From assembly GCA_024697065.1 (NCBI GenBank), contig JAILGE010000011.1, positions 62,001 to 126,000 of the forward strand: a stretch of DNA of 64,000 bases, read 5' to 3'. The position numbers and the translations under genes were made by a program. Of the stretch, positions 6,297 through 39,292 are shown one piece after another; the stretch's first letter is position 1; each line of letters opens with the position of its first letter. The DNA is from Lachnospiraceae bacterium (GTDB lineage Bacteria; Bacillota; Clostridia; Lachnospirales; Lachnospiraceae). The notes below the pieces were generated by a model. That model was given only the letters and a program-made list of their open reading frames with translations, had not been told where the DNA came from and did no database searches.

Positions 6297-6761
6297 ATGA
6301 AAAAACTTATTGCACAGATAATTAAATTCGGATTAGTGGGAGTGATATGCTTCATCATTGATTTTGGCCTGTACAACGGGCTGAATCTTATTGGAGTCCA
6401 TTATCTTATATCGGGAGCAGTAGGTTTTATCGTTTCCGTTGTGGTAAATTATATCCTTTCCTTTAAATTTGTTTTTGAGAGAAAAGAGAATCTGGATCGA
6501 AGGGCGGAATTTATTATATTTGTAGTGCTTTCTGCCATCGGTCTCGGCGTAAACGAGCTTTTTATCTGGCTTTCCGTTGATGTGGTATATGAAGGAAGCG
6601 CACTGTTACAGGGCCTGATGGGAGAAAATCTGGCGAAGGCGGCAGGTAAGATATTTGCCACAGGTGTCGTCATGGTATATAACTTTGTGACGAGAAAGAT
6701 ATTCCTTGAGAAGAAGACGGATAAGAATACGGACAATAAAGAAAATGAAGAACAAAAATAA
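6297..6761 (+). CDS. GtrA family membrane protein
   Basis: This 154-residue protein has four membrane helices (about 5-27, 36-58, 75-95 and 115-135) and the family ending VYNFVTRKIFLEKK. GtrA proteins are thought to move polyprenyl-phosphate-linked sugars across the inner membrane. In phage-type serotype-conversion loci they act with a GtrB synthase and a polytopic transferase. Both partners are present here at 13472 and 14419, though not adjacent. The lysine-rich tail overlaps the start of the next gene by 17 bases. It is a second GtrA module in addition to the one fused at the end of the protein at 3208; the two are distinct in sequence. Confidence 0.88.
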   Translation: MKKLIAQIIKFGLVGVICFIIDFGLYNGLNLIGVHYLISGAVGFIVSVVVNYILSFKFVFERKENLDRRAEFIIFVVLSAIGLGVNELFIWLSVDVVYEGSALLQGLMGENLAKAAGKIFATGVVMVYNFVTRKIFLEKKTDKNTDNKENEEQK

Positions 6762-8835
6762 GGAAAATCATAATAAAGAAAAACATAATAAAGAAATCCG
6801 GAATATAAAAACTCCTAATAAAGAAACTCAAAATAAAGAGACTCACAATAAAGAGACTCACAATAAAGAGACTCCTAATAAAGAGATTCAAAGTAATGAG
6901 ATCGGTAATGCAGAGAGCAAAACCACAGGCCGGAAAAAAATACCGGATAAGATATTGCTTGCGGCAGGAAGTCTGATACTTCTGATCTTTGTAATGACAG
7001 GGATCTTCTCGGGAGCTGATCTTTCGGATACAACTTACAGTCTTGCAAATTATAAGTATTTTAATTCTCTTGAAGGCAGCTGGAAGTATGCCACTTTTCT
7101 TGCAAATCTGACAGGTTTCTTACTTGTTAAGGTGTTTGGAGGAAACATGATAATGATGAACATGGCTACATCCATGTTTATAGTTATCACTGCAGGAGCA
7201 GTTATGTTTTCTCTGAGGAAGATCATTCCGATACCCGTTCTTTTTGCGGGAGAGGTCATAGCTATAGGCTTATGCTGGTGTCCGTCGGTGATCCTTTACA
7301 ATTACCTGTCATATCTGCTTTTGACCGTTGCATGTCTTTTGCTGTTTTTCGGAATGCTTGGTGACAGGAAGGGGTTTCTTTTTCTTGCAGGTATTTGTCT
7401 TGGACTTAATTTTTTCGTAAGGATCTCGAATGCCGCTCAGGTGATATTGATACTCTGGGTAGTATTTGCTTACTATGCAAAGAAAACCGCGATCCGTCGC
7501 GAGATCGGCGGAACGGGACTTTTAACTGCCATAGGTATGTGTGTTTTGGGATATCTTGCGGGAGTTTTGAGCGGATTTGTTATACTCTTTATTTATGAAA
7601 TGAGCATGGGCGGAAATGCCGCGGCAAGGCTCGGGGAAGTGTTCTCCTGGATCACGGGACTGCTTGGGATCGGAAAGGATGAAGGCAACTCTCTTTCAAG
7701 CGGTACAGGCTACTCCTTTGCGGATATGCTTGGTTCCGTGCTGGAGAATTATAAGGGAAACCTCACATGGGCCGGAATGCTGGTGGGAGAGGTGCTTTTA
7801 GGTTCTGTCTTCTTTGATCTTGAATTCATCGAAAGGTCGGTAAAAGGCAAAAATAAAGCAGGAACGGTTAAGGCCATAGGTATAATAAAGCGTATATGCT
7901 ACACGGTTTGTGTTGTATTACTTTTCGTCTACTATGAGAGAAACGGTATATTTAATCTTACTTACACGAATACCGGAAGCGTGTTCAGGATAAGTGTGGT
8001 ATTCATACTGGTCACAGTGCTGGTGGTGCTGGCGGATATGACAGCGGGATTCCGATGCAGCCCGGAAGAGAGAATGTTGGCATGTATGTGTTTTATCCTG
8101 ATAGCGATCACTCCTATAGGAACGAACAATCATCTCTTTGCCGTTATCAATAACATGTTCATTATTGCCCCTGTCAGCCTGTATCTCATGATACAGTTGC
8201 TGGGAGATATCAGGGATAAAAAATTTCACTATCCTGTTGCGGTGATGTTTTTCGCACTGATTGCCGTGATGATAATCCAGAGTGCAATATTCGGAGTGGT
8301 TTATACATTTAAAGATGGTGAGGACGGAACAAAGCGGTCTGCAGTGATAAGTGAGAAGATACCCACTATGAGTGGAGTACGTACAACGGCGGCTCATGCA
8401 GAGGCGCTGGAGGGATTAAGCGAATATATTGCATCAACGGATGCCGCTGACAAGGGACTGATAGTCTGGGGGAATATGCCCGGTCTTTTCTATATCCTTG
8501 ATCAAAAGCCGGAACTTAATACCCTCTGGCCTGATCTGGACAGTTATCCTTACGATGATTTTTCGGCCGGGCTGACGGCTTTGCAGGAGAGTAAAAAAGA
8601 TCCGTTACTTATCATCTCTGCAGAAGAAGCGGAAGCTTTCGGCGGTGCGAAGGGATATTCGTACAGCGCCGGTGAGGAAGATGATCTTCAGATAATGCTT
8701 AAGAGAATGGCACTTATGGAATTCATGCTGCTGGGAGGCTACAGATGCAGCTACAGCAATCAGGAATTCTTCGTATACGAACCTTATCACATCGAAGATA
8801 TCTGGCAGAATATGCAATGGAATGAAGAGGAATGA
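6745..8835 (+). CDS. Polytopic GT-C-like membrane protein with N-terminal pentapeptide repeats
   Basis: The 696 residues start with about 66 hydrophilic positions rich in Lys, Asn and Glu, nine of them repeats of the type NKETH. About ten to twelve membrane segments follow (from about 68 to 540), and then a soluble C-terminal domain of about 150 residues. The first outer loop has ADLSDTTYSLANY, with acidic residues placed as in GT-C glycosyltransferases, so I read it as a probable outer-face sugar transferase; no conserved domain name is certain. I prefer the ATG at 6745; the in-frame TTG at 6706 would add 13 basic residues with no ribosome site. The gene overlaps gtrA and is followed by wecE. 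A polymerase (Wzy-like) role cannot be excluded. Confidence 0.7.
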   Translation: MKNKNKENHNKEKHNKEIRNIKTPNKETQNKETHNKETHNKETPNKEIQSNEIGNAESKTTGRKKIPDKILLAAGSLILLIFVMTGIFSGADLSDTTYSLANYKYFNSLEGSWKYATFLANLTGFLLVKVFGGNMIMMNMATSMFIVITAGAVMFSLRKIIPIPVLFAGEVIAIGLCWCPSVILYNYLSYLLLTVACLLLFFGMLGDRKGFLFLAGICLGLNFFVRISNAAQVILILWVVFAYYAKKTAIRREIGGTGLLTAIGMCVLGYLAGVLSGFVILFIYEMSMGGNAAARLGEVFSWITGLLGIGKDEGNSLSSGTGYSFADMLGSVLENYKGNLTWAGMLVGEVLLGSVFFDLEFIERSVKGKNKAGTVKAIGIIKRICYTVCVVLLFVYYERNGIFNLTYTNTGSVFRISVVFILVTVLVVLADMTAGFRCSPEERMLACMCFILIAITPIGTNNHLFAVINNMFIIAPVSLYLMIQLLGDIRDKKFHYPVAVMFFALIAVMIIQSAIFGVVYTFKDGEDGTKRSAVISEKIPTMSGVRTTAAHAEALEGLSEYIASTDAADKGLIVWGNMPGLFYILDQKPELNTLWPDLDSYPYDDFSAGLTALQESKKDPLLIISAEEAEAFGGAKGYSYSAGEEDDLQIMLKRMALMEFMLLGGYRCSYSNQEFFVYEPYHIEDIWQNMQWNEEE
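6757..6891 (+). repeat. Nine 15-bp in-frame tandem repeats
   Basis: Nine consecutive 15-bp units of the form AATAAAGARACTCAY code for NKE-x-x pentapeptides at the N terminus of the membrane protein. The middle units are almost identical and the outer ones diverge, as expected if copies arise by slippage. Because 15 is a multiple of three, gain or loss of a unit keeps the frame. Confidence 0.9.
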
Positions 8836-8860
8836 TATCTCTACGCGGAGGAATACAGGA

Positions 8861-9991
8861 ATGATTAATTTTAATGTACCGCCTTATACAGGCAAAGAAC
8901 TTGATTACATAAAGGAATGTGTCGAATCCCAGAAGATCTGCGGAGACGGAAAATATACCAAAAAATGTAATGAGTGGATAGAGAAAAAGACGGGTGTATC
9001 AAAATGCCTGCTGACAACCTCCTGCACTCATGCCACCGAGATGGCTGCTCTTTTGGCTGATATCCGGGAGGGCGATGAAGTGATAATGCCTTCGTATACT
9101 TTTGTATCAACTGCAGATGCCTTTGTTCTCAGAGGTGCAAAGGTTGTTTTCGTGGATATCAGACCGGATACCATGAATATAGATGAACAGAAGATAGAAG
9201 CTGCGATCACTCCTAAGACCAGAGCTGTCGTTCCGGTTCATTATGCCGGCATCGGTTGTGAAATGGATACCATCATGGATATAGCTTCAAGGAAAGGACT
9301 TGTGGTAATAGAAGATGCCGCACAGGGAATAATGTCTGCCTATAAAGGCAAGGCTCTTGGTGCCATTGGCGATATGGGATGCTTTTCTTTTCATGAGACC
9401 AAAAATTACAGCATGGGTGAAGGCGGAGCGCTTCTTATGCGCGATAGTAAATATATAGAAGAGGCTGAGATCATCAGAGAGAAAGGAACGGACAGAAGCA
9501 GGTTCTTCAGAGGACAGGTTGATAAATATACATGGGTCAATTACGGCTCATCATATCTGCCCAGTGATATGAATGCGGCTTATCTGTATGCACAGCTTGA
9601 GATGGCCGATGAGATCAACGATGCCAGAAAGAAGATATGGAATACATATTATAAAGAGCTCAAACCGCTTGAAGAGGCAGGTCTCATAACTCTTCCCACT
9701 GTGCCGGGGGGATGCGTTCATAATGCTCATATGTTTTATATCAAGGCAAAAGATTTCGAAGAACGCACAAAGCTCATAAGCTTCCTTAAAGCAAATGATA
9801 TACTTTCCGTGTTCCACTATATCCCGCTGCATTCGTCTCCTGCCGGATTAAAATTCGGACGCTTTAACGGGGAGGATGAGTATACCACAAAAGAAAGCGA
9901 AAGACTTACCAGGCTTCCGCTTTACTACGGATTAACGGAAGAGCAGAATATGTATATCATCGGCAAGGTGAAGGAATTCTATAAATGTTAA
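8861..9991 (+). CDS. wecE: dTDP-4-amino-4,6-dideoxygalactose transaminase WecE
   Basis: This PLP enzyme of the DegT/DnrJ/EryC1/StrS family transfers an amino group from glutamate to C4 of dTDP-4-keto-6-deoxyglucose, giving dTDP-Fuc4N. The 376 residues follow the enteric WecE/RffA sequence closely from the start (MINFNVPPYTGKELDYI) through ASC-type loops EVIMPSYTFVST and VVPVHYAG, the PLP lysine in CFSFHETKNY, and FFRGQVDKYTWVNYGSSYL. I chose ATG 8861 because GGAGG lies nine bases before it and homologues begin there; ATG 8822 would add 13 residues inside the previous gene. The enzymes that make its substrate (RmlA, RmlB) are not in the window. The GNAT at 12952 could acetylate the product. 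Confidence 0.92.
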   Translation: MINFNVPPYTGKELDYIKECVESQKICGDGKYTKKCNEWIEKKTGVSKCLLTTSCTHATEMAALLADIREGDEVIMPSYTFVSTADAFVLRGAKVVFVDIRPDTMNIDEQKIEAAITPKTRAVVPVHYAGIGCEMDTIMDIASRKGLVVIEDAAQGIMSAYKGKALGAIGDMGCFSFHETKNYSMGEGGALLMRDSKYIEEAEIIREKGTDRSRFFRGQVDKYTWVNYGSSYLPSDMNAAYLYAQLEMADEINDARKKIWNTYYKELKPLEEAGLITLPTVPGGCVHNAHMFYIKAKDFEERTKLISFLKANDILSVFHYIPLHSSPAGLKFGRFNGEDEYTTKESERLTRLPLYYGLTEEQNMYIIGKVKEFYKC

Positions 9992-11232
9992 AAAAGACAG
10001 ATTCCGTTGAGAAAAAAAGAAATGTTGCGGTAATAGTTCAGAACGGGGATGGAGGCGGTGCGGAACGCATGGCTGCCAACATGACTCTCGGCCTGGAAAA
10101 ATACTGCAATGTTTTTTTTGTTTTATTTGACGGGAGCAATATCATATATGATCATGCAGGAAAGGTGATAGATCTTAAGATACCGCCTTTGAGAGAGGCA
10201 GGAGCCTTTAAAAGGATCGCTAATATATGTAAGAGAGTAAAGGCTTTGCGCGATATCAAGAAAAAATATGATATCGATGCTGCAATCTCCCATCTCGACG
10301 GAGCAGATCTTGTAAATATCCTTTCGGGAAGAGGGAGAAAGGGAAAAAAGTGCAGGATCATTTCGGTATATCATTCGGTACCTTCGGTAAATGAGAGCTG
10401 TTCTCTTCCTCATCGTCTGTTCCACAGATTTATAGGGGCTTTTTCCGACAGATATATCATGGTCTCAAAACCGGCAGCCGGAGATATGGCGGAAAATTTT
10501 GGCGTGAATGCGAATAAGATTTCCGTGATCTACAACTTTTCCGATCTGAAAAGGATCGAAAGATTAAAGGATGCATCACTTCCCGAAGAAGCAGATAAGT
10601 TTTACGCTGATCATAAAAAGATGATCATGAATGCAGGAAGGATGGAAAAGGTCAAGAGACAGGAGCGGCTTGTAAAGATTCTCAGGTCGTTACGTTCCGA
10701 AAAGGGGATGACGGATACAGGCCTTGTGATTTTAGGAGACGGACCGGAGAGAGCAAACCTTACAAGGCTTGTTAAAAAATATTCTCTTGAAGAACATGTA
10801 TTTATGCCCGGGAATGTTGACAATCCATTTATGTATATGTCACGTTCCGACGTATATGTGCTCTGCTCCGACTACGAGGGCCTTCCCATGGCTCTTACGG
10901 AAGCGGCTGCCTGCTCCTGTCCTGCCGTATCCTGCGATATGAGATCCGGTGCAAGAGAGATCCTTGCGCCAAAGACCGAGTGGTCGAAACATACGGACAG
11001 TATTGAGATCGCTGAATATGGTATACTCACAAAACCCTTTGACTATCCCGGCGGGGAGAATTTCACTCCGGATGATGGGGATTCCGCTCAGAGCTTCCTT
11101 ACGGATGCCGTCGGCCGAATGCTCACGGATGAAGAGCTTCGCAAGGGGTATATAGCTAAGAGCCATGAATGTGCTTACAGATTTTCACCCGAGAGGATAT
11201 TAAAGAAATGGATGAAGCTGATCGCAGAATAA
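9985..11232 (+). CDS. Family 4 glycosyltransferase
   Basis: This 415-residue GT-B fold transferase should act at the cytoplasmic face of the membrane. The N-terminal acceptor domain begins VIVQNGDGGGAERMAANM, a typical GT4 opening. The C-terminal donor domain has NAGRMEKVKRQERLVKIL, ILGDGPERANL and the E-x7-E motif in YEGLPMALTEAAACSCP. The ATG overlaps the end of wecE by seven bases. The next gene starts within its last 25 bases. Retaining chemistry is known for GT4; donor and acceptor are not predictable here. Confidence 0.9.
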   Translation: MLKKTDSVEKKRNVAVIVQNGDGGGAERMAANMTLGLEKYCNVFFVLFDGSNIIYDHAGKVIDLKIPPLREAGAFKRIANICKRVKALRDIKKKYDIDAAISHLDGADLVNILSGRGRKGKKCRIISVYHSVPSVNESCSLPHRLFHRFIGAFSDRYIMVSKPAAGDMAENFGVNANKISVIYNFSDLKRIERLKDASLPEEADKFYADHKKMIMNAGRMEKVKRQERLVKILRSLRSEKGMTDTGLVILGDGPERANLTRLVKKYSLEEHVFMPGNVDNPFMYMSRSDVYVLCSDYEGLPMALTEAAACSCPAVSCDMRSGAREILAPKTEWSKHTDSIEIAEYGILTKPFDYPGGENFTPDDGDSAQSFLTDAVGRMLTDEELRKGYIAKSHECAYRFSPERILKKWMKLIAE

Positions 11233-12965
11233 AATCGGATAAACTGATCACGGTGATCGCTCTTGCTGTCACCGCTTTTGTTTTTATACCTGTATTCATA
11301 AGAAGAGATATCATATTTGCGTTGAACGACGACGTGATGATAAGGGATATCTTAAGCGGAAGCTATACGGGAGACACTTCATGCATGACAGTGTATATGA
11401 GAGTACCGCTTTCTTTCGTGCTTTCGCTGCTTTATCGGATCCAGCCCTTTGTACCATGGTTCGGAGCGTTCCAGTGCGGCTGTTTTATCGCTTCTTTTTT
11501 TCTTATCCTTGCCCGTATTTATGGTATTACTTTTTCGAGGTACCGTGATCGGGATGACGGGAAAAGCAGGATTAACCTCGGCGTAAGGATAATCGTTTAT
11601 TCCATACTCTGTGCTGTTTTCTTTTTCTGCGTCATCTATCCCAGATTTGTTCTTATCCATTACACGATAACTGCGGCCGTAACCGGAGGAACAGGACTTT
11701 TTTTGCTTATAACCTCAGCAGAGCCTCAGGAAAATGAGAGAAAGACCCTGTGGGCAGATGCGGCGGTGATGCTGATACTCTGCGACCAGATCAGATCACA
11801 GGTATTTATCATGATTCTTCCGTTTATCTTTGTCTCTGTTCTGTTTCTTATCATGATCAAAAGAAAAGGCGTGATCAGATGGTTTATAGTAAGTGCCCTG
11901 ATATATGCAGCTTTACTGGGCATACATACAGCATGTTATGCCGGGGGATCATGGAGAGAATATAAAGACTACAACGCAGCAAGAACGGAATTATATGATT
12001 ATGCACTTGTGTGGGACACGGATGATGCCAGGGCGTTCTACAGGCAAATGGGGATATCGGATGTAGAGTATCCCGTATTGAAGAATTATGATATAGCTCT
12101 GGATGAAGCTGCGGATGCGGAGCTTTTCAGAAATATGGCAGCCTTTTCTTCCGGTAATGATCAAAAGAGTTTTCAGGTAAAACTAAAGGAGACTGTCTGG
12201 ATGATAAAGCACAATATCATCTCAAAGGGGACGGAAAGGTCGTATGCCCTGCTTCTCCTGTCGGGATATGTGCTTATCACTGTTGCTATCTTCATTAAAA
12301 AGAAATATGCATTTTTCATACCGGCAGCATCCGGTCTTATCCTTCATTTCGGATTATACGGTCTGTTGTTATGGCGCGGACGTTTTCCGGAAAGAGTGAT
12401 GATATCTCTGTATTTCGCGGAGTATCTGATCATAGCAGCTCTTTTTGTCGGACTTTTGCGTTACGGAAAGACAGACAGAGATGAAAAGATCTGGTGCGGA
12501 ACCATAATCCTGTGCGCGATAATGACTGTGGAACTGACATATATATATAGATCGGCGGATTTGATAAGAGTCTTTGACAGAACGTATGATCGCCAGCTTT
12601 CTGTAAATAGCGACTGCAATATGTTATACTTGTATCTGGCTTCCGAAGCGAAAAAAGACGCATGTTACCTGACAGATATCTACACCTGTGTGGATGCGAC
12701 CGGAAACGCGCTGTCGGAAAACTGTCCTCAAAAAGGCGGGGCTTGTATTCCTGAAATGTTTACCGCCGGAGGATGGATAACGGGAAGCCCGCATATGGAA
12801 AAGAGACAGGAGTCCTTTGGACCGGATCCGAAGAGGATGTATGTCTGCAGAGAGAATACAGGGCTTTCACCTGAAGATTTTGCAAGATTTACAGGGTTAT
12901 ATCTGACAGAGATCAAAAGGATAGAGACGGGCTACGGCACCTTTGTGATATATGATGGAAATTGA
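11208..12965 (+). CDS. Polytopic membrane protein, probable GT-C-type transferase
   Basis: The 585 residues hold about ten or eleven membrane helices between about 10 and 440 and a soluble C-terminal domain of about 140 residues ending GYGTFVIYDGN. The first outer loop contains FALNDDVMIRDILSGSYTG; paired acids in this position are the usual catalytic feature of GT-C enzymes. I have seen the same NDDVMxRDIxSG pattern in unnamed membrane proteins of Firmicutes glycan clusters, but know no assigned function. The ATG at 11208 reduces overlap with the GT4 gene to 25 bases; an ATG at 11169 would extend it by 13 residues. It overlaps the downstream GNAT by 14 bases. A Wzy-like polymerase is an alternative. 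Confidence 0.65.
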   Translation: MDEADRRIKSDKLITVIALAVTAFVFIPVFIRRDIIFALNDDVMIRDILSGSYTGDTSCMTVYMRVPLSFVLSLLYRIQPFVPWFGAFQCGCFIASFFLILARIYGITFSRYRDRDDGKSRINLGVRIIVYSILCAVFFFCVIYPRFVLIHYTITAAVTGGTGLFLLITSAEPQENERKTLWADAAVMLILCDQIRSQVFIMILPFIFVSVLFLIMIKRKGVIRWFIVSALIYAALLGIHTACYAGGSWREYKDYNAARTELYDYALVWDTDDARAFYRQMGISDVEYPVLKNYDIALDEAADAELFRNMAAFSSGNDQKSFQVKLKETVWMIKHNIISKGTERSYALLLLSGYVLITVAIFIKKKYAFFIPAASGLILHFGLYGLLLWRGRFPERVMISLYFAEYLIIAALFVGLLRYGKTDRDEKIWCGTIILCAIMTVELTYIYRSADLIRVFDRTYDRQLSVNSDCNMLYLYLASEAKKDACYLTDIYTCVDATGNALSENCPQKGGACIPEMFTAGGWITGSPHMEKRQESFGPDPKRMYVCRENTGLSPEDFARFTGLYLTEIKRIETGYGTFVIYDGN

Positions 12966-13479
12966 CCGTATAGAAGGAAACAGAATATTCTTAAGACAGA
13001 TGAGGGCAGATGACACAAAGGATATACTCAGGTGGCGCAATAATCCTTCGGTCGTCCGCCGTTTTATTTACAGGGAAACCGTAACTGAAGAGGATCATCT
13101 GAAGTGGATTCGCGAGAAGGTTGATACAGGACTTGTAAAGCAGTTTATTATCACCGTCAGAGAAACCGGACGGGGAATAGGAAGTGTCTATCTTCAAAAG
13201 ATAGATATGGATAATAAGACCGCTGAATTTGGGATTTTTATCGGCGAAGATGATGAAAATGGAAAAGGCTACGGTACAGAGGCGCTGCAGCTGATCACAA
13301 ATTATGCTTTTGAAAAGCTTGGGCTGGTCAGGCTAACTCTCAGGGTTCTTGAAGATAATAAAAGCGCAAGATCGGTATACGAGAAAAACGGATGGATAAT
13401 GGTTCCTGACGACTGCGGAAGTATTATGTCGGATGGGAGAGAGGTCCGTATACTTGATATGGAGAAGACAAATGGATGA
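12952..13479 (+). CDS. GNAT family N-acetyltransferase, probably acting on an amino sugar
   Basis: This 175-residue protein belongs to the RimJ/RimL-like GNAT branch: NRIFLRQMRADDTKDILRWRNN at the N terminus, GFGI-type beta-4 (AEFGIFIGEDDENGKGYG with the acetyl-CoA loop GKGYGT) and NKSARSVYEKNGW near the end. The same branch includes PseH and several nucleotide-sugar acetyltransferases. In this locus the likely substrates are dTDP-Fuc4N from WecE or the PseC product, because both need an N-acetylation step. The start overlaps the preceding membrane protein, and ATGs at 12952 and 12955 are equally possible. Its stop overlaps the following GtrB-like gene. Confidence 0.8.
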   Translation: MMEIDRIEGNRIFLRQMRADDTKDILRWRNNPSVVRRFIYRETVTEEDHLKWIREKVDTGLVKQFIITVRETGRGIGSVYLQKIDMDNKTAEFGIFIGEDDENGKGYGTEALQLITNYAFEKLGLVRLTLRVLEDNKSARSVYEKNGWIMVPDDCGSIMSDGREVRILDMEKTNG

Positions 13480-14422
13480 CAAAAAACTACTGAGCTTTGT
13501 TATACCGTGCTACAGGTCGGAAAAGACCATAGGTAGTGTTGTGGATGAGATCAATTCCGCAATGGAGAAGCTTTCGGGATATGATCATGAGATCATTCTG
13601 GTAAATGATTGTTCTCCTGACGGGACCATGGATGTGATCAAAGAAATATGTTCACGTGATAAATGTGTAACAGGAATTGATTTTGCCAGAAACTTCGGAC
13701 AGCATTCGGCACTGATGGCCGGCCTCAGGCAGACCAGGGGAGATATAGTCATATGTCTTGATGACGACGGACAGACTCCGGCTGATGAGGCACATCTCCT
13801 TATAGAAGCTCTTGAAGACGGCGCTGATGCCTGCTATGCAAGATACATGGTAAAGGAACATTCCCAGTTCAGGAATTTCGGGACATTTCTTAATGAGAAG
13901 ATGGCGGAGTTTATGCTGGAGAAGCCGAAGGAGCTTTATGTCTCCAGCTATTTCGCGGTTAAGAGATATATCGTTAATGATATGATAAGGTACGAGAATT
14001 CTTATCCCTATGTTATAGGACTTGTTCTCAGGACCACGAGAAATATCGTTAATGTCGATATCAGTCACAGAAAGAGAATGGTTGGAAATTCGGGATACAC
14101 TTTTTCAAAGCTTCTGGGACTCTGGCTTAACGGCTTCACATCCTTTTCGATCAAGCCGTTGAGAGTTGCGACCATAATTGGAGCGCTGTCGGCATTTTGC
14201 GGATTTATCTACGGAATAGTAGTAATAGTTCAGAAATTTGTGCTTCCCGATCGTGTATTGGGATTTTCATCATTGATGGCCATGCTGATATTTTTCGGAG
14301 GCATGATAATGATCATGCTGGGACTCATCGGAGAATATGTGGGGCGTATTTATATCAGCATGAATAATTCACCGCAGTATGTAATCAAGGAGATAATATC
14401 TCCGAATAATGAAAAGAAATGA
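13472..14422 (+). CDS. GtrB/DPM1-like polyprenyl-phosphate glycosyltransferase
   Basis: This family-2 transferase should move a sugar from a nucleotide donor to undecaprenyl phosphate. Residues 1-225 are the GT-A domain (SFVIPCYRSEKTIG, LVNDCSPDGT, ICLDDDGQTP as the metal motif). Two membrane helices lie near 235-257 and 270-295, and the end reads EYVGRIYISMNNSPQYVIKE, the usual ArnC/GtrB/DPM1-like tail. I chose the ATG at 13472 because GGAG lies about nine bases upstream; an upstream ATG at 13433 sits inside the GNAT gene. The next gene, a Gtr-II-type transferase, starts in its stop codon (ATGA), which makes a functional pair very likely. Confidence 0.88.
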   Translation: MDDKKLLSFVIPCYRSEKTIGSVVDEINSAMEKLSGYDHEIILVNDCSPDGTMDVIKEICSRDKCVTGIDFARNFGQHSALMAGLRQTRGDIVICLDDDGQTPADEAHLLIEALEDGADACYARYMVKEHSQFRNFGTFLNEKMAEFMLEKPKELYVSSYFAVKRYIVNDMIRYENSYPYVIGLVLRTTRNIVNVDISHRKRMVGNSGYTFSKLLGLWLNGFTSFSIKPLRVATIIGALSAFCGFIYGIVVIVQKFVLPDRVLGFSSLMAMLIFFGGMIMIMLGLIGEYVGRIYISMNNSPQYVIKEIISPNNEKK

Positions 14423-32522: not shown

Positions 32523-34579
32523 TGATCATAGTTTGCTTTATACTGGGAATTGCTGCTGCGTGGTTTATGACTGCGCAGATATTCAGAAAAACAGATCTGG
32601 TTAAGATCGCTGCCCTGGGGACAGGGTTTTATTTCAGTGCTTATACAGTCCTGTCGGGTTTGATGATATGGATAAATCATTTTTCTGTAGTACGTGCTGT
32701 GATATGTACACTTATCGTAGCCGTCATCACAGATGTATTTCTCTTTGTTACCAAGACGGGAAGGATCCACAGGATAAAGTTTAACTGGAAGTCTTACATA
32801 CCCCTTGCAATAATGCTGGCCCTTGCAGCATTTTTATCATGCAGGAATCATGCAGAGATGTATTACATGGGACAGGATTCGGGACCTTATGAATCCCGCG
32901 CCATGTTTTATTTGGGAGGATATAACGATAATGTGATCTCTTTTCCCGAGATCGGTGACAGTTTAAACGAGTGGGAGAAGTGGCATTATATCGATGAATT
33001 AAAGGATCTTGACGGATTCTATGCAGAATATCCCTCGGACGAAGCTGTGGCCGGCACCGTGAACGTGACCGGCGTGATACACGGTATCAACACTTTCCCT
33101 GCAGTCATGGCTCTCTGGGCGATGATGTTTGGGCTGGATAGTATGCCGGGAATCCTTACGGTATTCTATATGCTGCTGATCGCATATATCTGGTTTATAT
33201 GCGTGAACCTTAAATTCAAGACTTCCGTGAGGACCATCATAACGGCAGTAATGGTTTTATGTCCAATTATCCTGTGGAATTCGCAGAATACTCTTCCGGA
33301 GATACTTCTTGCGGCATTCCTGGCGATGTCTTTTGAACTTATAAGCGAGGGAACAAAAAAGCGTGTGACATTCATGTCCGCTGTCCCGCTGGCTGCTTTT
33401 GCATTCCTGCATATTCAGATGACGATACTGATGCCGTTGTTTGTTTGTATCTACCTGATCAATTATTTCTACACCAGGCACAGAGGATATCTGAATGCAT
33501 TGCTGGTAGTGCTTGTATCCTACGTTTGCGGATTCATCATGATGTTTACTACGGCAAGGGTATATGTTAATAAGAATTTCGCGGCTATCTACAATAAGAC
33601 TTTCGGGCTGGTCACAGAGAAAAATATTGTAGTGGTTATATTCATCACATCCATCATAGCTGCGGCAGCTGTTGTAATGATGAAGCTTGTCGGTAAGAGA
33701 TTCTTTGCGATAAGAATTTCGCAGATTCTCAAGAACAGTAAAAAAGCAGGAACGAATGCACGTGCTGTTATTGCCGTTGTGCTGCTCATATTGACGGGAA
33801 TATATGTATATAAAGCTTTTACGTCCGTTATTCCTTCGGATATGCGAATAGCCAGGATGTCTGTCATGGGACTACTTCAGATGACCGGATTTGTGATACT
33901 TCCTTTTGCGCTCATCGCGATGATATATAAGGGAAAAGATTTCTTCAAAGACAGATTGTTTGCATCGTCAGTGATCTCGATGATATATGTTCTTATCCTG
34001 TATTGCAGGGTGGTGGTACCGCAGGTATATTATTATTTTTACTTTGCAAGATATCTTACTCCGTTTATCTTCCTGGTACCGGTCACGGCCGGTTTTATAC
34101 TCAACAGGATAAAGCCCAAATATATGATGCCTCTACCTGTTGCGGGAATACTTGTGATGATATGGCAGAGCAGGATCCTTTATACTGAACGGGATCTTAC
34201 ATATTCGCAGTATGAGATAATGGAGAGTATCGCATCCTGTGTGACTGAAAAAGATGCCGTGCTTATTAATGAGCAGGGATACAGATGCCAGAGGATCTTC
34301 CTGTTGCCCTTAAAGGCGCTTACAGGTGCAGATATTTTCTTTGTTGATCAGGACAATATAGATACACAGCTGGCATATTATAAATCGAAATACGACGATG
34401 TATTTTGCTTTACCTATGATATAGGTCACATTAACGAGGAGTCGGGAGTGTGGAGGGCTGTATATAAGGGCGTGGCACACGGGTCAATTTATGAAACGTA
34501 CTATGAATATATTCAGCCTTATCCGCTGAAAACGGATAAGCTTGAGACACCTGTCGTATTGTATATTGCTCAGCACTGA
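32522..34579 (+). CDS. Polytopic membrane protein, probable GT-C-type transferase
   Basis: The 685 residues have about fourteen hydrophobic helices between 1 and 550, a long outer loop (about 105-200) and a soluble C-terminal domain of about 130 residues. The loop begins HAEMYYMGQDSGPYESRAMF; an acidic residue soon after the early helices is the usual GT-C arrangement. The start is the ATG of a TGATG overlap with the GT4 gene, preceded by GAGGGAATGGGA. The protein is unrelated by eye to the other polytopic proteins of the locus. It may use a polyprenyl-phosphate sugar made by one of the DPM1-like enzymes that follow; that pairing is inferred from position. Confidence 0.65.
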   Translation: MIIVCFILGIAAAWFMTAQIFRKTDLVKIAALGTGFYFSAYTVLSGLMIWINHFSVVRAVICTLIVAVITDVFLFVTKTGRIHRIKFNWKSYIPLAIMLALAAFLSCRNHAEMYYMGQDSGPYESRAMFYLGGYNDNVISFPEIGDSLNEWEKWHYIDELKDLDGFYAEYPSDEAVAGTVNVTGVIHGINTFPAVMALWAMMFGLDSMPGILTVFYMLLIAYIWFICVNLKFKTSVRTIITAVMVLCPIILWNSQNTLPEILLAAFLAMSFELISEGTKKRVTFMSAVPLAAFAFLHIQMTILMPLFVCIYLINYFYTRHRGYLNALLVVLVSYVCGFIMMFTTARVYVNKNFAAIYNKTFGLVTEKNIVVVIFITSIIAAAAVVMMKLVGKRFFAIRISQILKNSKKAGTNARAVIAVVLLILTGIYVYKAFTSVIPSDMRIARMSVMGLLQMTGFVILPFALIAMIYKGKDFFKDRLFASSVISMIYVLILYCRVVVPQVYYYFYFARYLTPFIFLVPVTAGFILNRIKPKYMMPLPVAGILVMIWQSRILYTERDLTYSQYEIMESIASCVTEKDAVLINEQGYRCQRIFLLPLKALTGADIFFVDQDNIDTQLAYYKSKYDDVFCFTYDIGHINEESGVWRAVYKGVAHGSIYETYYEYIQPYPLKTDKLETPVVLYIAQH

Positions 34580-34674: not shown

Positions 34675-34689
34675 TTCTTGGAGGATAAT

Positions 34690-35718
34690 ATGAAACTAAT
34701 AATTCAGATACCGTGTTATAACGAGGCTGAGACACTGGAGATCGCACTTAACGATCTTCCGAAAAAAGTTGAGGGTATCGATGAGATCGAATATATGATA
34801 ATCGATGACGGCAGCACGGATAAAACCGTGGATGTGGCATTGAAATGGGGCGTGCATCATGTCGTGAGCTTCACCAGAAATAAAGGCCTGGCCAAGGGGT
34901 TCATGGCGGGTATCGAAGCGGCTCTTTCATATGGCGCTGATATCATTGTAAATACGGATGCGGATAATCAATATGCAGGCTCTGATATAGAGAAGCTGGT
35001 AAAGCCGATCCTTGACGGAGACGCTGATATAGTTATCGGTGAGAGACCGATCGATGAGATAAAGCATTTCTCGTGGCTTAAGAAGAAGCTTCAGCATTTC
35101 GGCAGCTGGGTTGTCAGAAAAGCTTCCAAAACAGATATTCCCGATGCACCGTCAGGCTTCCGTGCTTTTTCAAGAGAAGCAGCGATGCATATCAATGTTG
35201 TAAATGAATATACGTATACATTAGAGACTATAGTTCAGGCGGGAAGAAATAAGATGGCTATAACGTCCGTTCCCGTACATACCAATCCGGAACTTAGGAA
35301 GTCCAGACTGTTCCACAGCATGGGAGCTTATGTTAAGAAATCCATGCTTACGATACTTAGAGCGCTTCTCATGTACAGGCCGCTAATAGTACTTACGATT
35401 GTCGGTGCGATACCGTTTATCATGGGTTTTGCCATAGGATTCAGATTCCTGTTGCTATACTTTTCGGGAAGAAGCGCAGGGCATGTACAATCGCTGATAC
35501 TTGCATGTACCCTTATGATAATGGGTTTTATGACTTTCGTAATAGGTATGTTGGCTGATGTCATCTCAGCAAACCGCAAGATACTTGAGGATGTTCAATA
35601 TCATGTGAGAAAACTTACCTATGATGAGTCCACTGCCAAAGTATGGCAGGAGGCCGCGAGCAATAAGGTGGAGAAGGAAGCGGTGGCAGAAAATGCAGAC
35701 TATTCCTCGGATGACTGA
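34690..35718 (+). CDS. DPM1/GtrB-like polyprenyl-phosphate glycosyltransferase
   Basis: A 342-residue GT2 enzyme expected to make a polyprenyl-phosphate sugar. IIQIPCYNEAETLEIAL, IIDDGSTDKTVDVAL and IVNTDADNQYAGSDIEKL are the GT-A motifs; APSGFRAFSREAA is the acceptor-loop region typical of DPM1-like proteins. Two C-terminal membrane helices follow (about 237-262 and 275-300), then a charged tail rich in Glu and Lys. GGAGG lies five bases before the ATG; the TTG at 34678 would add four residues inside that site. It starts the run of four short genes to 37893 and overlaps the next by one base. Confidence 0.85.
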   Translation: MKLIIQIPCYNEAETLEIALNDLPKKVEGIDEIEYMIIDDGSTDKTVDVALKWGVHHVVSFTRNKGLAKGFMAGIEAALSYGADIIVNTDADNQYAGSDIEKLVKPILDGDADIVIGERPIDEIKHFSWLKKKLQHFGSWVVRKASKTDIPDAPSGFRAFSREAAMHINVVNEYTYTLETIVQAGRNKMAITSVPVHTNPELRKSRLFHSMGAYVKKSMLTILRALLMYRPLIVLTIVGAIPFIMGFAIGFRFLLLYFSGRSAGHVQSLILACTLMIMGFMTFVIGMLADVISANRKILEDVQYHVRKLTYDESTAKVWQEAASNKVEKEAVAENADYSSDD

Positions 35719-36515
35719 TGAAAGATAAGAAACCGTTAGTAAGTCTTTGGATATTGATGTACAACAACAGCTCGGATCTTAAGGAGACGGTAGACTCGGT
35801 ACTTATGCAGGACTATGATGAGATCGAAGTGATCTTCAGCGATGACGGATCCGCAAAGCTTGATAAGGAAGCTGTTGAAAAAGAGGCTGCAAGAGTACGT
35901 GAAAAATATTCCGAGGTAAGAGTTTATTTCAATCCGGAGAATATGGGTACGGTAGCCCATATCAATTCCGTTGTGGACAGATCCAAGGGTAAGTATTTTG
36001 TCAGTTGCTGTCCGGGAGACAGATTTCATTCGCCGGATACTGTAAGACGTATAGTGGAAAGGATGGAAAAAAAGCATTCCCTCATGCTCACCACAAGAAG
36101 GAATGATATATATCCGGATCGCATCAGCGTAAAGCCGCCGGCCATTACCGGAGTTGCGCTCAGATTTGCTCCGCGTCTTTTGTGTGATTATATGCTCAGA
36201 AAGAGGAATCTGATAAGCGGGTGTTGTACTTTTACGGCTAAGGAACTGTTTGAAAGATACGGAAAATACGATACTGATTACAGATTGCTTGAGGATTATC
36301 CTTATGTGGTAGATCTGCTGAGGAACGGAGCAAGAATAGATTTCATGAACCTTGTTACAATCGACCATTCCATCGGTGGAGTTTCCACGGGGAAGATACA
36401 TCCGCTGATCTGGAAAGATATAGTGTGCATGAGAAAAAAACTTCTTAAGGATCCGCATGGTCTTATGAAAAAGACGGTGAGATTCCTTGAGGAGACATCA
36501 AAAGAAACAGATTGA
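35718..36515 (+). CDS. Family 2 glycosyltransferase
   Basis: A compact 265-residue GT2 enzyme without membrane helices. PLVSLWILMYNNSSDLKETVDSVL, VIFSDDGSAKLDKEA and YFVSCCPGDRFHSPDT correspond to the GT-A motifs, although the usual D-x-D is changed to PGD, which is seen in some family members. The second half has GCCTFTAKELFERYG and DYRLLEDYPYVVDLL. The ATG overlaps the previous stop (TGATG). It should add one residue in the cytosol; specificity is unknown. Confidence 0.83.
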   Translation: MKDKKPLVSLWILMYNNSSDLKETVDSVLMQDYDEIEVIFSDDGSAKLDKEAVEKEAARVREKYSEVRVYFNPENMGTVAHINSVVDRSKGKYFVSCCPGDRFHSPDTVRRIVERMEKKHSLMLTTRRNDIYPDRISVKPPAITGVALRFAPRLLCDYMLRKRNLISGCCTFTAKELFERYGKYDTDYRLLEDYPYVVDLLRNGARIDFMNLVTIDHSIGGVSTGKIHPLIWKDIVCMRKKLLKDPHGLMKKTVRFLEETSKETD

Positions 36516-36517
36516 TT

Positions 36518-36919
36518 ATGGATATTAAGAGATACAGGTTACAACAGCATGGCGACTGGAGAGGACATCTTGTCGCACTTGAAGAGATGAAGGATATCCC
36601 TTTTGAAGTCAAACGTGTCTATTACATGTATGACACAAAGCCCGGGATCATCCGTGGTATGCATGCGCATAAGTCTCTTGAACAGTTGCTTGTTTGTGTA
36701 AACGGATCCGTGGATGTGCTTCTTGATGACGGTACCGAGAGGCAGCATGTGATATTGAATGACCCCTGCGAAGGCATCTACATCGCAAATAATATCTGGA
36801 GAGAAATGTCGGATTTTACAGAGAATGCTGTTCTGATGGTATTTGCTTCAAAGTATTATGACGAGAACGATTACATCAGGGATTATGATGAGTTCCTTAG
36901 GTTTGTAGGAAAAAAATAA
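36518..36919 (+). CDS. fdtA: dTDP-4-oxo-6-deoxyglucose 3,4-ketoisomerase (FdtA/QdtA/WxcM-like)
   Basis: This small cupin (133 residues) should move the keto group of dTDP-4-keto-6-deoxyglucose from C4 to C3, the first committed step to 3-amino-3,6-dideoxyhexoses such as Fuc3NAc. RGHLVALEEMKDIPF, KRVYYMYDT, IIRGMHAHKSLEQLLVCVNG and ASKYYDENDYIRDYDEFL follow the family consensus, with the active-site His pair in HAHK. By memory of the sequences it resembles FdtA more than QdtA, but the two cannot be separated safely by eye. No FdtB-like aminotransferase is in the window; WecE uses the 4-keto isomer. The ATG at 36518 is used; a TTG at 36512 is possible. Confidence 0.82.
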   Translation: MDIKRYRLQQHGDWRGHLVALEEMKDIPFEVKRVYYMYDTKPGIIRGMHAHKSLEQLLVCVNGSVDVLLDDGTERQHVILNDPCEGIYIANNIWREMSDFTENAVLMVFASKYYDENDYIRDYDEFLRFVGKK

Positions 36920-36936: not shown

Positions 36937-37893
36937 ATGGATCGTATAGCGGTATTGATCCCGTGTTATAACGAGGAGAAGACAATCAAAAAAGTTGTGG
37001 AAGATGCAAAGAAGGTTCTTCCGGAAGCTTCTGTATATGTCTATGACAACAATTCCACTGACAGGACTTATGAGATAGCAACTGCCGCAGGGGCTATTGT
37101 ACGAAAAGAAACCAGACAGGGAAAAGGCTTTGTTTTAAGAAGGATGTTCAGGGAGATAGATGCTCTTTGTTATATCTGCGTGGATGGGGATGATACATAT
37201 CCTATGGAGTTCGCACGTGAAATGGCGGACAAGGTCCTGAATGAGAATGCCGATATGGTTGTGGGAGACAGGCTTTCATCAACATATTTTACAGAGAACA
37301 AGAGACCTTTCCATAACGCGGGCAATTCCATGGTAAGGAAATTCATTAACAGTTTTTTTAAAAGTGATATCAAGGATATAATGACAGGCTTCAGAGCTTT
37401 GTCTTATGAATTTGTCAAAAGTTATCCGGTTCTCAGCAGAGGATTTGAGATAGAGACTGAGATGACTATACATGCCGTTTTTAATGAGATGGTAATAGAA
37501 AATGTAGTGGTTGAATACCGCGACAGACCTGAGGGAAGTGAGAGTAAGCTAAATACCTATTCCGATGGAGCGAAGGTCATTGGCACGATCATCAAATTAT
37601 ACAAAAATTATAAGCCGTTGAGCTTCTTTTCCGCACTTGCGGCAGTGATGCTCATTGTTGCTGCGGCAATGTTTTTGTGGGTATTTGCCAGATTCCTGAA
37701 CACGCATCTTGTTGAAAACATGCCGACTCTTGTGGTAAGCGGCTTTATAGCGCTTGCTGCCATTCAGGCATTCTTTTCGGGCCTCATCCTTTCCGATATG
37801 GTAACGGAGAAAAGGCGCAGTTTTGAGATGACTTTAAACAGGATACATGAGAGAAAGATCGATCTGATACAAAAAGATGAAGAAGGAAAGTGA
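36937..37893 (+). CDS. DPM1-like polyprenyl-phosphate glycosyltransferase
   Basis: A 318-residue GT2 enzyme, the third DPM1-like protein of the locus. IAVLIPCYNEEKTIKKVVED, VYVYDNNSTDRTYEIA and YICVDGDDTYPMEFAREM are the donor motifs, and IKDIMTGFRALSYEF is the typical acceptor-loop region. Helices near 230-255 and 268-288 close the protein. Its first half resembles the widespread Dol-P-mannosyl/glucosyl transferase group in Firmicutes. GGAG lies eleven bases before the ATG. The next gene, a polytopic membrane protein, starts inside its last 17 bases, suggesting a synthase/user pair. Confidence 0.86.
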   Translation: MDRIAVLIPCYNEEKTIKKVVEDAKKVLPEASVYVYDNNSTDRTYEIATAAGAIVRKETRQGKGFVLRRMFREIDALCYICVDGDDTYPMEFAREMADKVLNENADMVVGDRLSSTYFTENKRPFHNAGNSMVRKFINSFFKSDIKDIMTGFRALSYEFVKSYPVLSRGFEIETEMTIHAVFNEMVIENVVVEYRDRPEGSESKLNTYSDGAKVIGTIIKLYKNYKPLSFFSALAAVMLIVAAAMFLWVFARFLNTHLVENMPTLVVSGFIALAAIQAFFSGLILSDMVTEKRRSFEMTLNRIHERKIDLIQKDEEGK

Positions 37894-39292
37894 AAATAAA
37901 TCTAAGATAACAATACGCACGCGGATCATAGAGCTTTCGGTCTGTGTGCTTTTTTATATGTTTTTTTGCGTCGCATACGGTGTTTATATCGGTGCGGATT
38001 CCAAAGGATATATGGAGATGATAGCGGCAAGGGAACCGGTATATCCATTGTTGCTCGCATTATTCAGAAAGATATTCGGAAAGGATGATTATCTGTTTCC
38101 GGTGATAGTTTTTCAGAATCTGTTACAGGCTGCGTCTGTTTTTTTCTGCGTGGACTATCTGAGAACAAGATTCAGACTTCCTGAATTAATATCTGTCATG
38201 ATGTATGCGGTTAATTTCGGAGTGGCTTTTCTTTGTCAGTTTGCATCAGAGAGAGGCGCGATATATTCCAGTAATATAATGACGGAAGGCATTACGGTTT
38301 CTTTATGGCTGGTATTCATGACGCTGGTTTTGAAGGGGATCGTTGATGATGATAACAGGTCGATCTTTCTTGCACTTATTATTGAGACTATACTCGTAGA
38401 TACCAGAAAACAGATGGCAGTGGGATATATAGTTATTTTCCTGGCGGTGCTCATCTGCCGTGCCGGCAGGGATAAGAAAGGAAAGTATTTCGCAAGACTC
38501 GCACTGGTTACGGCAGGGATAATATTGAGTCTTGTTACGGCTGTCTGCGGGACCAGGCTCTACAATCTGATACTCAGGGGTGAGTTCGTTCAGAATGTAA
38601 GAGATATGAACCTGGTTCTTACCACATCTCTCTATGTTGCGGACAAAGAGGATGACAGGCTCATAGAAGACGCAGATGCGAGAGAACTGTTCCAAAGAAC
38701 CTATGTGCTCCTGGAGGAGACGGAGAGTAATTACAGCTTTGCAAAGGGCGGCCTCGCCGGTCTGGAATCTCATTATGAAGAACATTATGATGTGATAACC
38801 ATAGAGATCACAAAGAATCTTTTTGAGGATTTCGCTAGAGAAAAAGGGGCTGCGGATGAACTTGGTGCTGCCATTGAAGCTGACAGATTAAGCGGAGTGA
38901 TCGTAAAAAGTCTGTTAAAGGATAATATAGCAACATATGCAAAGGTTTATCTTTCATCCGTCATAAACGGGCTTGTAAACACCGTGGCTCACAGGAACAG
39001 GATCCTCGATATATGTGCTTACATCGCATACGGAGCATATATTGTCCTGTTAGTGATATGCAGGTTCAAAACCGGGAAAAGGGACGTGGCAGATGTTTCG
39101 CTGACGGTGCTTGGTGCGCTCCTTGTTAATGTTGGAGTTACAGCGGCACTTATCTTTTGCCAGAGCAGATATATGATCTATAATATGGCATTATTCTATA
39201 TGGCCGGAATCTTAATGGTCTATGAGATCTTTCTTCATCATGAAACCGCACAGACCGCCGCGCTTTCTGGCAGTGAATCTGTGAGAGAATAG
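37877..39292 (+). CDS. Polytopic membrane protein, probable GT-C-type transferase
   Basis: The 471 residues have about ten membrane helices. The first outer loop reads GVYIGADSKGYMEMIAAREP, followed by VYPLLLALFRKIFG; an acidic residue in this place followed by R-x-P-x-YP is common to GT-C enzymes such as ArnT-like and mannosyltransferase families. An extra outer loop of about 120 residues (from GEFVQNVRDMN) interrupts the helices. The start overlaps the DPM1-like gene by 17 bases. The last 81 bases overlap pgeF on the other strand. It is the last gene of the glycan locus. Confidence 0.68.
   Translation: MKKESENKSKITIRTRIIELSVCVLFYMFFCVAYGVYIGADSKGYMEMIAAREPVYPLLLALFRKIFGKDDYLFPVIVFQNLLQAASVFFCVDYLRTRFRLPELISVMMYAVNFGVAFLCQFASERGAIYSSNIMTEGITVSLWLVFMTLVLKGIVDDDNRSIFLALIIETILVDTRKQMAVGYIVIFLAVLICRAGRDKKGKYFARLALVTAGIILSLVTAVCGTRLYNLILRGEFVQNVRDMNLVLTTSLYVADKEDDRLIEDADARELFQRTYVLLEETESNYSFAKGGLAGLESHYEEHYDVITIEITKNLFEDFAREKGAADELGAAIEADRLSGVIVKSLLKDNIATYAKVYLSSVINGLVNTVAHRNRILDICAYIAYGAYIVLLVICRFKTGKRDVADVSLTVLGALLVNVGVTAALIFCQSRYMIYNMALFYMAGILMVYEIFLHHETAQTAALSGSESVRE

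Follow-up and report, generated by a model that had tools for sequence, protein, structure and literature searches.

Why would one bacterial locus hold three genes for predicted polyprenyl-phosphate-sugar synthases, two GtrA domains, and six polytopic membrane proteins? The question arises from a stretch of 64,000 nucleotides (the window, meaning the whole of the DNA that was analyzed) from a Lachnospiraceae bacterium (GenBank assembly GCA_024697065.1, contig JAILGE010000011.1, positions 62,001 to 126,000), whose genome comprises 2.69 Mb in 44 contigs. A sequence-only reading of the window had proposed that a glycan backbone is built inside the cell and then decorated outside by parallel Gtr-like branches. 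We find that the window probably carries a core cell surface glycan locus of a rumen Lachnospiraceae genus, combining assembly inside the cell with an enlarged multicomponent transmembrane glycosylation system. Inside assembly would be carried out by nucleotide-sugar enzymes, about 10 soluble glycosyltransferases (GTs), and a PglK-like ATP-binding cassette (ABC) exporter. Each of the three synthases would, as suggested by homology, load polyprenyl phosphate with a sugar taken from a nucleotide-sugar, the GtrA domains would flip the sugar lipids, and GT-C enzymes (a fold predicted for two of the polytopic proteins and presumed for the rest) would use them outside. The genes on which this proposal turns are listed here, with S denoting a synthase, P a polytopic protein, and the number the start of the open reading frame (ORF).

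3196 to 5208, plus strand: fusion of GNAT, acyltransferase-3 (AT3), and GtrA domains, 670 amino acids (Pfam)
6297 to 6761, plus strand: stand-alone GtrA-type candidate flippase (PF04138, 78.1 bits)
6706 to 8835, plus strand: P6706, probable GT-C transferase (genus-wide presence, AT3 neighborhood, profile match to the P37877 family of 77 to 84%)
11169 to 12965, plus strand: P11169, probable GT-C transferase (invariant NDD; weak profile match to the P37877 family, 40 to 60%)
13433 to 14422, plus strand: S13433, predicted polyprenyl-phosphate-sugar synthase of the GtrB/ArnC class (GT2 domain, structure matches, DDDGQ)
14419 to 15981, plus strand: GtrII-type polytopic glycosyltransferase (PF14264, 167.7 bits; cutoff, 30)
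27074 to 29385, minus strand: accessory DUF6020 polytopic protein and hexapeptide acetyltransferase (Pfam; exchanged block)
32519 to 34579, plus strand: P32519, polytopic protein with a predicted GT-C fold (AlphaFold2 model, PDB fold matches)
34678 to 35718, plus strand: S34678, predicted polyprenyl-phosphate-sugar synthase of the dolichol-phosphate-mannose synthase (DPMS) class (structure match 5mlz, DADNQ)
36937 to 37893, plus strand: S36937, predicted polyprenyl-phosphate-sugar synthase, AglJ/DPMS-like (TIGR04182, 204 bits; 5mlz match; DGDDT)
37877 to 39292, plus strand: P37877, polytopic protein with a predicted GT-C fold (AlphaFold2 model, PDB fold matches)

For five of the longest ORFs, the start lies 3 to 39 bases ahead of the position first assigned; the gene placed at 3208 is ORF 3196 to 5208, and those at 13472 and 34690 are S13433 and S34678.

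All three synthases consist of a GT2 domain followed by two hydrophobic C-terminal helices, as the sequence-only reading had described, and two of their genes overlap a polytopic gene directly (S13433 and 14419 by 4 bases, S36937 and P37877 by 17 bases). The matches of S13433 are to ArnC-type structures (E = 2.9e-42) and to sll0501 of Synechocystis (E = 5.9e-34), known as GtrB, while S34678 (E = 5.1e-14) and S36937 (E = 1.3e-12, residues 3 to 253) match the dolichol-phosphate-mannose synthase 5mlz. In addition, the motif DxDxQ, proposed as a hallmark of polyisoprenyl-phosphate GT2 enzymes (PMC10821137), is present in S13433 (DDDGQ) and S34678 (DADNQ) but not in S36937 (DGDDT), and it is missing from the three soluble GT2 proteins that were checked. 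Scores with the AglJ model TIGR04182 stay under the curated cutoff of 325 bits, at 204 bits for S36937 and 115 bits for S34678. By homology, all three proteins are predicted to be membrane GT2 synthases of polyprenyl-phosphate sugars. In another Lachnospiraceae genus, one locus (L214) holds S34678-, S13433- (34%), and S36937-like synthases within 7 kb, so three synthases per locus are not unique to the host genus.

Among the polytopic proteins, 14419 belongs to the GtrII family, far above the gathering cutoff, as the Gtr-II-like label given to it had implied. Five more (P6706, P11169, 27074, P32519, and P37877) were correctly singled out as multihelix proteins; by hydropathy they have 8 to 11 predicted helices, and in each a helix is shortly followed by an acidic motif (GADLSDTTY, NDD, SRDSF, GQDSG, and GADS), placed only after about 110 to 170 residues in 27074 and P32519. 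One acidic residue of the motif is invariant in alignments of P37877, P6706, P32519, and P11169, the NDD of the last following its first helix. Domains were sought in 40 window proteins with Pfam at 1e-3 (curated or gathering cutoffs are quoted), and P6706, P11169, P32519, and P37877 are recognized by neither Pfam (1e-3) nor NCBIfam (0.1). Since a PDB sequence search with profiles of P37877, P32519, and P6706 returned nothing meaningful, structures were predicted with AlphaFold2 and compared with the PDB by Foldseek. The model of P37877 (mean pLDDT [predicted local distance difference test] 91.9, alignment of 51 sequences) has GT-C enzyme entries as its first 27 matches (STT3/OST, AglB, PglB, Pmt4, EmbA/B, ArnT, and ALG9; probability, 0.93 to 1.00), and among the best 50 of 344 matches, unrelated membrane proteins appear at a probability of at most 0.13, interspersed with further GT-C enzymes. 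That of P32519 (pLDDT 85.7, alignment of 22 sequences) has GT-C entries as its first 14 matches (ALG12, STT3, AglB, ArnT, AftD, and AftA), with a best E value of 7.6e-5 and five at or below 0.001. Profile comparison by hhalign relates 27074 (88%, from a four-sequence profile), P6706 (77%), P32519 (54%), and P11169 (40%) to the P37877 family, and two controls, the membrane part of the ABC transporter and the AT3-GtrA protein, stay below 4% with all six polytopic families. We did not accept profile comparison alone as proof of a GT-C fold, as pairs without P37877 score low and the 27074 profile holds only four sequences.

The GT-C fold is therefore well supported by modeling for P37877 and P32519, is supported by family name (PF14264) for 14419, and is likely, with weaker support from profiles, for P6706, P11169, and 27074; the first three would be GT-C transferases, and the acidic motifs listed above would lie in an outside loop. 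Of the five unnamed proteins for which structure prediction had been suggested as a check, two are borne out by predicted folds, and three have weak profile matches. It could be argued that the polytopic proteins are transporters or flippases, given that four of the six match no Pfam (1e-3) or NCBIfam (0.1) family, but the fold of two, the GtrII assignment of a third, and the invariant acidic loop residues make this highly improbable. At the start of the P6706 ORF, a 15-bp tandem repeat (8.5 to 9.7 copies, 6755 to 6901) encodes an NKETH-rich N terminus; the true start of this gene is uncertain because most aligned relatives match only from residue 60 to 95 or so onward.

The remaining features of the locus include genes for sugar supply, soluble GTs, and a candidate exporter.

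52 to 2166, plus strand: PseI (pseudaminic acid synthase) and PseG-like hydrolase (NCBIfam; PseI, 476 bits, cutoff 340; PseG, 154.1 bits, cutoff 153.55)
8822 to 9991, plus strand: WecE-type transaminase, predicted to form dTDP-4-amino-4,6-dideoxygalactose (NF008687)
9985 to 11232, plus strand: cytosolic GT4 glycosyltransferase (Pfam)
12952 to 13479, plus strand: GNAT, probable amino-sugar N-acetyltransferase (PseH model, 90.6 bits, narrowly below the cutoff of 93.1)
16944 to 24721, plus strand: soluble GT4 and GT2 enzymes, a DUF5672 protein, and one weakly GT-like protein (Pfam)
24718 to 27029, plus strand: nucleotide-sugar dehydrogenase and epimerase (TIGR03026, 397 bits, cutoff 190; the epimerase is under all named cutoffs)
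29586 to 31325, plus strand: PglK-like ABC transporter, candidate exporter of lipid-linked oligosaccharide (NF050066, 357 bits)
31341 to 32522, plus strand: soluble GT4 glycosyltransferase (Pfam)
35718 to 36919, plus strand: soluble GT2 and FdtA, dTDP-sugar ketoisomerase family (Pfam; no NCBIfam match for FdtA at 1e-10)
39438 to 39466, plus strand: terminator-like hairpin with T run, possible operon end (consensus match alone; 22 such sites against 9.8 in shuffles)

PseI and PseG appear from their scores to be a nonulosonic acid supply, the dehydrogenase and epimerase may provide uronic acid, and the enzymes of 16944 to 24721 would assemble oligosaccharide inside the cell. Soluble GTs number about 10 in the locus, nine with a Pfam match at 1e-3 and one weak.

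The named relatives that sequence comparison brought up belong for the most part to rumen Lachnospiraceae (XPB1003, NK4A179, NC2008, AB2028, and many metagenome-assembled genomes). The genus sample comprised 35 genomes, the host's own included, and gene order was read in seven further loci (G049, the nearest relative of the host genome, and G002, G020, G017, G047, G004, and G014). Relatives of P37877, P6706, and P11169 each occur in 34/35 genomes, with G008 having only a 24% relative of P37877. The 5' order (GT2, AT3-GtrA protein, P6706, WecE-type transaminase, P11169, GNAT, synthase and/or polytopic gene) is kept in all seven loci, and the 3' cassette (PglK-like transporter, GT4, P32519, S34678, S36937, and P37877, with the soluble GT2 and FdtA in most) is ordered in six; the soluble GT genes between the two are reshuffled, and G047 has a different polytopic gene where GtrII stands. 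The comparison across relatives that the sequence-only reading had called for thus gives a recurring order of genus-wide genes, for which reason chance grouping was rejected. Phage-borne serotype conversion was likewise discarded in view of the genus-wide presence and the lack of a tRNA in the window, no search aimed at phage genes having been made.

Sequence conservation differs among these parts. Median pairwise identities over the window and six genomes (G049 omitted as too near; each gene represented by 3 to 7 sequences, without S13433 relatives at ≤40% and PglK relatives at ≤50%) are 71.7% for S13433, 77.2% for S36937, and 81.0% for S34678. The polytopic proteins have 33.4% (P11169), 37.6% (P32519), 39.0% (P6706), 45.5% (14419), and 50.1% (P37877), soluble GTs have 43 to 61%, and nucleotide-sugar enzymes have 70 to 80% where counted (5205, FdtA, 24718, 8822, and 26028). 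A second set (named loci L079 to L107, 11 to 27 sequences per gene, identity filters applied) gave 81.6 and 78.0% for synthases, 36.5% for P32519, and 53.5% for P37877. Constant synthases beside diverging or swapped transferases are the pattern that a fixed donor sugar and a species-dependent acceptor glycan would produce; looser constraint on membrane proteins generally may also explain the divergence of the polytopic proteins.

The polytopic protein 27074 had been counted as a member of the locus like the others, an equality that does not hold. Together with its hexapeptide neighbor, it is 97.6 to 99.4% identical to G049 DNA over 27001 to 29000 and 94.6% over 29001 to 29500, in flanks of 80 to 88% (24001 to 27000 and 29501 to 32000), so the block from 27000 to 29500 looks like an accessory surface modification cassette that was exchanged recently. 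A DUF6020 gene is found at this site only in the window and G049 among the eight loci read, and relatives of 27074 occur in 11/35 genus genomes, and in the other nine of these the gene does not share a contig with the P37877 and P6706 relatives. We accordingly rejected it as a core part.

The two GtrA domains claimed for the locus were confirmed (78.1 bits in 6297 and 60.3 bits at the C terminus of 3196; PF04138 cutoff, 26.1), which predicts two GtrA-type flippases; a third match, of 31.3 bits, comes from another part of the genome. Of the eight loci, three (the window, G017, and G004) show the stand-alone gene, its place in G049 not being readable. AT3 and GtrA are covered by a single match in 32 of the 35 genus genomes, with two pieces in one 682-amino-acid frame in a 33rd, and the GNAT part is matched in 21. 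None of 98 genomes of other genera has both domains spanned by one match (E ≤ 1e-20), and G109 has a GtrA match and an AT3 match whose ends are 13 bases from each other; the AT3-GtrA fusion is genus specific within the genomes searched. Two architectures are known for bacterial carbohydrate AT3 acetyltransferases, namely, AT3 alone and AT3 with an outside domain, commonly SGNH (PMC7448272). A fusion with GtrA would tie acylation to flipping.

Does each synthase then feed a branch of its own? The first part of the locus (module A, about 6 to 16 kb) suggests otherwise. Its order recurs in other genera as AT3, P6706, WecE-type aminotransferase, P11169, sometimes GNAT, S13433, and a varying gene. 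Across all eight non-genus AT3 matches with E ≤ 3.5e-53, from eight genera, AT3 adjoins a P6706 relative in every case, a WecE-type transaminase (68 to 78%) and a P11169 relative are present in six each, and an S13433-type synthase (58 to 61%) is present in five, with a different GtrB-like synthase in L235; three of these stretches end at contig ends, and L236 shows AT3 and P6706 only. Of 14 rows, 10 have a polytopic gene next 3' of the S13433-type synthase, and two of the remaining four are cut off by the end of the stretch. These 10 genes are of several types: GtrII (three), weakly Wzy_C-like (three, below cutoff), P37877-like, DUF6020-like, weakly PMT_2-like (below cutoff), and untyped (one each). 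The transaminase at 8822 exceeds WecE-type cutoffs (NF008687, 645.3 against 375 bits; TIGR02379, 643.1 against 434.85 bits) and matches the solved structure 4piw (E = 1.2e-166). With the GNAT, it would make dTDP-4-amino(acetamido)-4,6-dideoxygalactose, and S13433 would load this amino sugar (Fuc4N or Fuc4NAc) on polyprenyl phosphate, as its class includes ArnC and the WecE-type gene travels with the synthase. Since an S13433-type synthase sits with P6706, P11169, and a varying third polytopic gene in other genera, one donor may serve several enzymes, with P6706, P11169, and GtrII 14419 using the same lipid-linked sugar at different acceptors. The parallel branch per synthase foreseen by the sequence-only reading is therefore too simple; from gene company, we infer that one lipid-linked amino sugar feeds two or three GT-C enzymes. 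A fuller proposal, which we offer only tentatively, is that module A in several Lachnospiraceae genera places a 4-amino(acetamido)-4,6-dideoxyhexose on polyprenyl monophosphate for two or three GT-C enzymes, instead of spending it in the cytosol as the enterobacterial common antigen pathway does, the last slot being exchangeable, and that in the host genus the AT3(-GNAT)-flippase fusion acylates the sugar lipid while it crosses the membrane.

Farther 3', S34678 would work with P32519 (module B) and S36937 with P37877 (module C). P32519 lies directly upstream of S34678 in 27/27 genus rows (21 genomes after removal of 6 repeats). For 33 of 66 rows (65 loci) with a P37877 relative, the nearest upstream window-like gene is an S36937-type synthase; 23 of these rows belong to the genus, and in the 10 pairs outside it, Kineothrix included, P37877 is only 27 to 34% identical while the synthase is 66 to 71% identical. 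Two other rows have an S13433-type synthase (55 to 56%) nearest upstream, more than 720 to 750 bases away, five have no window-like upstream gene, and the remainder have other upstream genes, including several with a dehydrogenase. Conversely, a P37877 relative is directly downstream in 37/41 rows with an S36937-type synthase, a count biased by 6 rows that repeat a genome and by the choice of most loci for holding P37877. Three polytopic neighbors of S34678 outside the genus were scanned; one falls just under the PMT_2 cutoff (25.7 against 26.1 bits), and two have no family. Many relatives (L149 and G002, for example) have a second PglK-like transporter behind P37877, and the window has none; in G002 (C6, about 43.8 to 51 kb) the next genes encode a protein of FucT/GT10 type and a polytopic DUF6056 protein. 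In G014 (C5, about 43.6 to 46.2 kb; L163/L044, NC2008) a P37877 relative shares one 863-amino-acid frame with a GT4, a possible fusion of soluble GT and GT-C.

The 3' cassette also admits a different scheme, in which AglJ/DPMS-like synthases prime chains on polyprenyl phosphate, soluble GTs extend them, the PglK-like transporter flips them, and P32519 and P37877 transfer whole oligosaccharides. S36937 scores best with AglJ, the run PglK-GT4-P32519-S34678-(GT2)-FdtA-S36937-P37877 moves as a unit in most genus loci, P37877 has oligosaccharyltransferase entries as its 14 top fold matches, and all five PF02397 initiating transferases of the genome lie off this contig. Oligosaccharides on polyprenyl monophosphate are handled by an analogous scheme, AglJ-AglB, in haloarchaea. 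A lactococcal precedent exists in WpsA-WpsG-WpsJ, as proposed (PMC10821137). However, neither the AglJ nor the PglK cutoff is reached (for 29586, 357 bits against a curated 1,000 with NF050066), fold ranking at such E values is weak evidence, the genome has initiating transferases elsewhere, and L118 and L121 have the S36937-P37877 pair with no PglK-like match in about 21 kb. We consider whole-oligosaccharide transfer unlikely.

Somewhat more plausible, if still short of an even chance, is that some polytopic proteins are a polymerase, a chain ligase, or a protein oligosaccharyltransferase, which is compatible with sugar-lipid decoration by the others. Scanned at 1e-3, the 40 window proteins gave no match to a Wzy or STT3 family, and the genome has no STT3 match at E ≤ 0.001, yet the glycan needs attaching. 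An extra weakly Wzy_C-like gene is present in four relatives (G014, G047, and G004, 19.8 to 26.1 bits against a cutoff of 31.7; G017 through 43% identity to G004), in three of the four directly behind the S13433-type synthase. On the other hand, the genome encodes one LCP-type protein outside the locus, and the pairing of polytopic and synthase genes favors sugar-lipid donors. Because the PF02397 and LCP proteins lie elsewhere, the locus may rely on functions common to several loci for starting the chain and attaching it to the wall. Protein N glycosylation by STT3/PglB was rejected on the missing STT3 match. The synthase, GtrA, and GT-C parts are present, and about 10 soluble GTs and a PglK-like ABC transporter agree with a backbone built inside and decoration outside, as first proposed, while decoration, polymerization, and ligation are indistinguishable from one another.

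Several observations weigh against the transmembrane glycosylation system that we favor. At the level of the proteins, S36937 lacks the DxDxQ hallmark, and the fold prediction covers P37877 and P32519 alone, P6706, P11169, 14419, and 27074 depending on profiles or a family name. The best Foldseek E value of P37877 is 1.1e-3, so none reaches 0.001, and its query-normalized TM (template modeling) scores are 0.28 to 0.45 in the first 14 rows, so that these matches do not single out one nearest GT-C family. The profile links hang on P37877, other polytopic pairs scoring 1 to 24% (6706-11169, 4.8%; 11169-32519, 3.2%; 32519-GtrII, 2.8%), and GtrII itself reaches only 1.8% with P37877. Low conservation is not peculiar to polytopic proteins (GT2c, 43%; GNAT2, 44%). 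At the level of gene order, G002 keeps P6706, P11169, WecE, and GNAT with an S13433 relative of only 26%, the G014 stretch is without P32519, S34678, and S36937, and three genus genomes (L076 to L078) have a P37877 relative with no adjoining S36937-type synthase. Outside the genus, GNAT2 is present in only three of the eight module A loci, the L240 stretch is without an S13433 relative, and only 4/12 S34678 loci have a polytopic neighbor (13 of 15 available loci; L202 unreadable). Finally, no polymerase or ligase was found among the 40 window proteins.

The locus extends 5' of the window with a UDP-galactopyranose mutase and a DUF2298 protein. About 6 to 10 kb 5' of the window (L004:10123-13904), a 504-amino-acid polytopic protein with no Pfam family stands with the DUF2298 polytopic protein (753 amino acids), a relative of which (40%) is seen in G047 alone among seven relatives' stretches, some of which end short of that place. 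Within the locus, a 39-bp tandem repeat (2.8 copies, 15997 to 16106) separates the GtrII and DUF2334 genes, and just 3' of the locus (40800 to 41810, minus strand) lies a gene for an NYN domain and OST-HTH/LOTUS protein. An Rfam scan of the window gave a single match, an FMN riboswitch outside the locus.

If the favored reading is true, a single locus of rumen Lachnospiraceae connects three donors linked to lipid with at least five transferases acting outside, in a map that can be tested. It also points to four polytopic families (P6706, P11169, P32519, and P37877) not recognized by Pfam (E 0.001) or NCBIfam (E 0.1), and the pattern of a fixed synthase with a diverging or swapped transferase offers a route to predicting species-specific surface glycans. 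Among the literature matches listed, titles and the starts of abstracts revealed no paper on this locus, on an AT3-GtrA fusion, or on a WecE-linked GtrB system.

How far, then, does the locus depart from known systems? Outside decoration by a GT-A synthase, a flippase, and a GT-C is established in Gram-positive bacteria, and in Streptococcus mutans two parallel branches belong to one cluster (PMC11754754). There, as proposed here, the SCC backbone is made inside, exported by an ABC transporter, and decorated outside by parallel branches, with synthases and GT-Cs in one cell wall glycan cluster (SccN/SccM and SccP/SccQ). The differences are that S. mutans has two of each, whereas here there are three synthases, five usual polytopic proteins, and GtrA domains in the locus, that the amino-sugar genes point to sugars other than glucose, and that the exporter is PglK-like. 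The SCC rhamnan exporter is a two-part transporter. Lactococcus lactis has three GT-A/GT-C pairs (CsdAB, CsdCD, and CsdEF) with one common GtrA-type flippase, CflA (PMC8035078); its pairs act on three polymers and the CsdC/CsdD/CflA genes lie outside the cwps cluster (PMC10821137), whereas here all genes share one locus. The gtrA-gtrB-gtr(type) sets of Shigella and Salmonella likewise combine a constant flippase and synthase with an exchangeable transferase, as a single set rather than a genus locus with three synthases, and more elaborate systems with several candidate GT-Cs are described in Xanthomonas and a Bacillus (PMC11127046). The claim that the locus far exceeds a usual serotype conversion set has to be weighed against the lactococcal pairs. 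The WecE-type score of the transaminase brings to mind the Fuc4NAc pathway of enterobacterial common antigen (ECA), whose gene names are tabulated in PMC12826051, although here the transaminase gene keeps company with a polyprenyl-phosphate synthase of the ArnC/GtrB class. AglJ of Haloferax and PglK of Campylobacter provide the best NCBIfam models of S36937 and 29586, at scores far under the curated cutoffs (204 of 325 and 357 of 1,000 bits). In ECA synthesis, Fuc4NAc is added from the dTDP-sugar in the cytosol. Since the two branches of S. mutans and the three pairs of L. lactis precede it, the locus is an enlarged variant of known multicomponent transmembrane glycosylation, unusual in size and makeup, and not a new principle.

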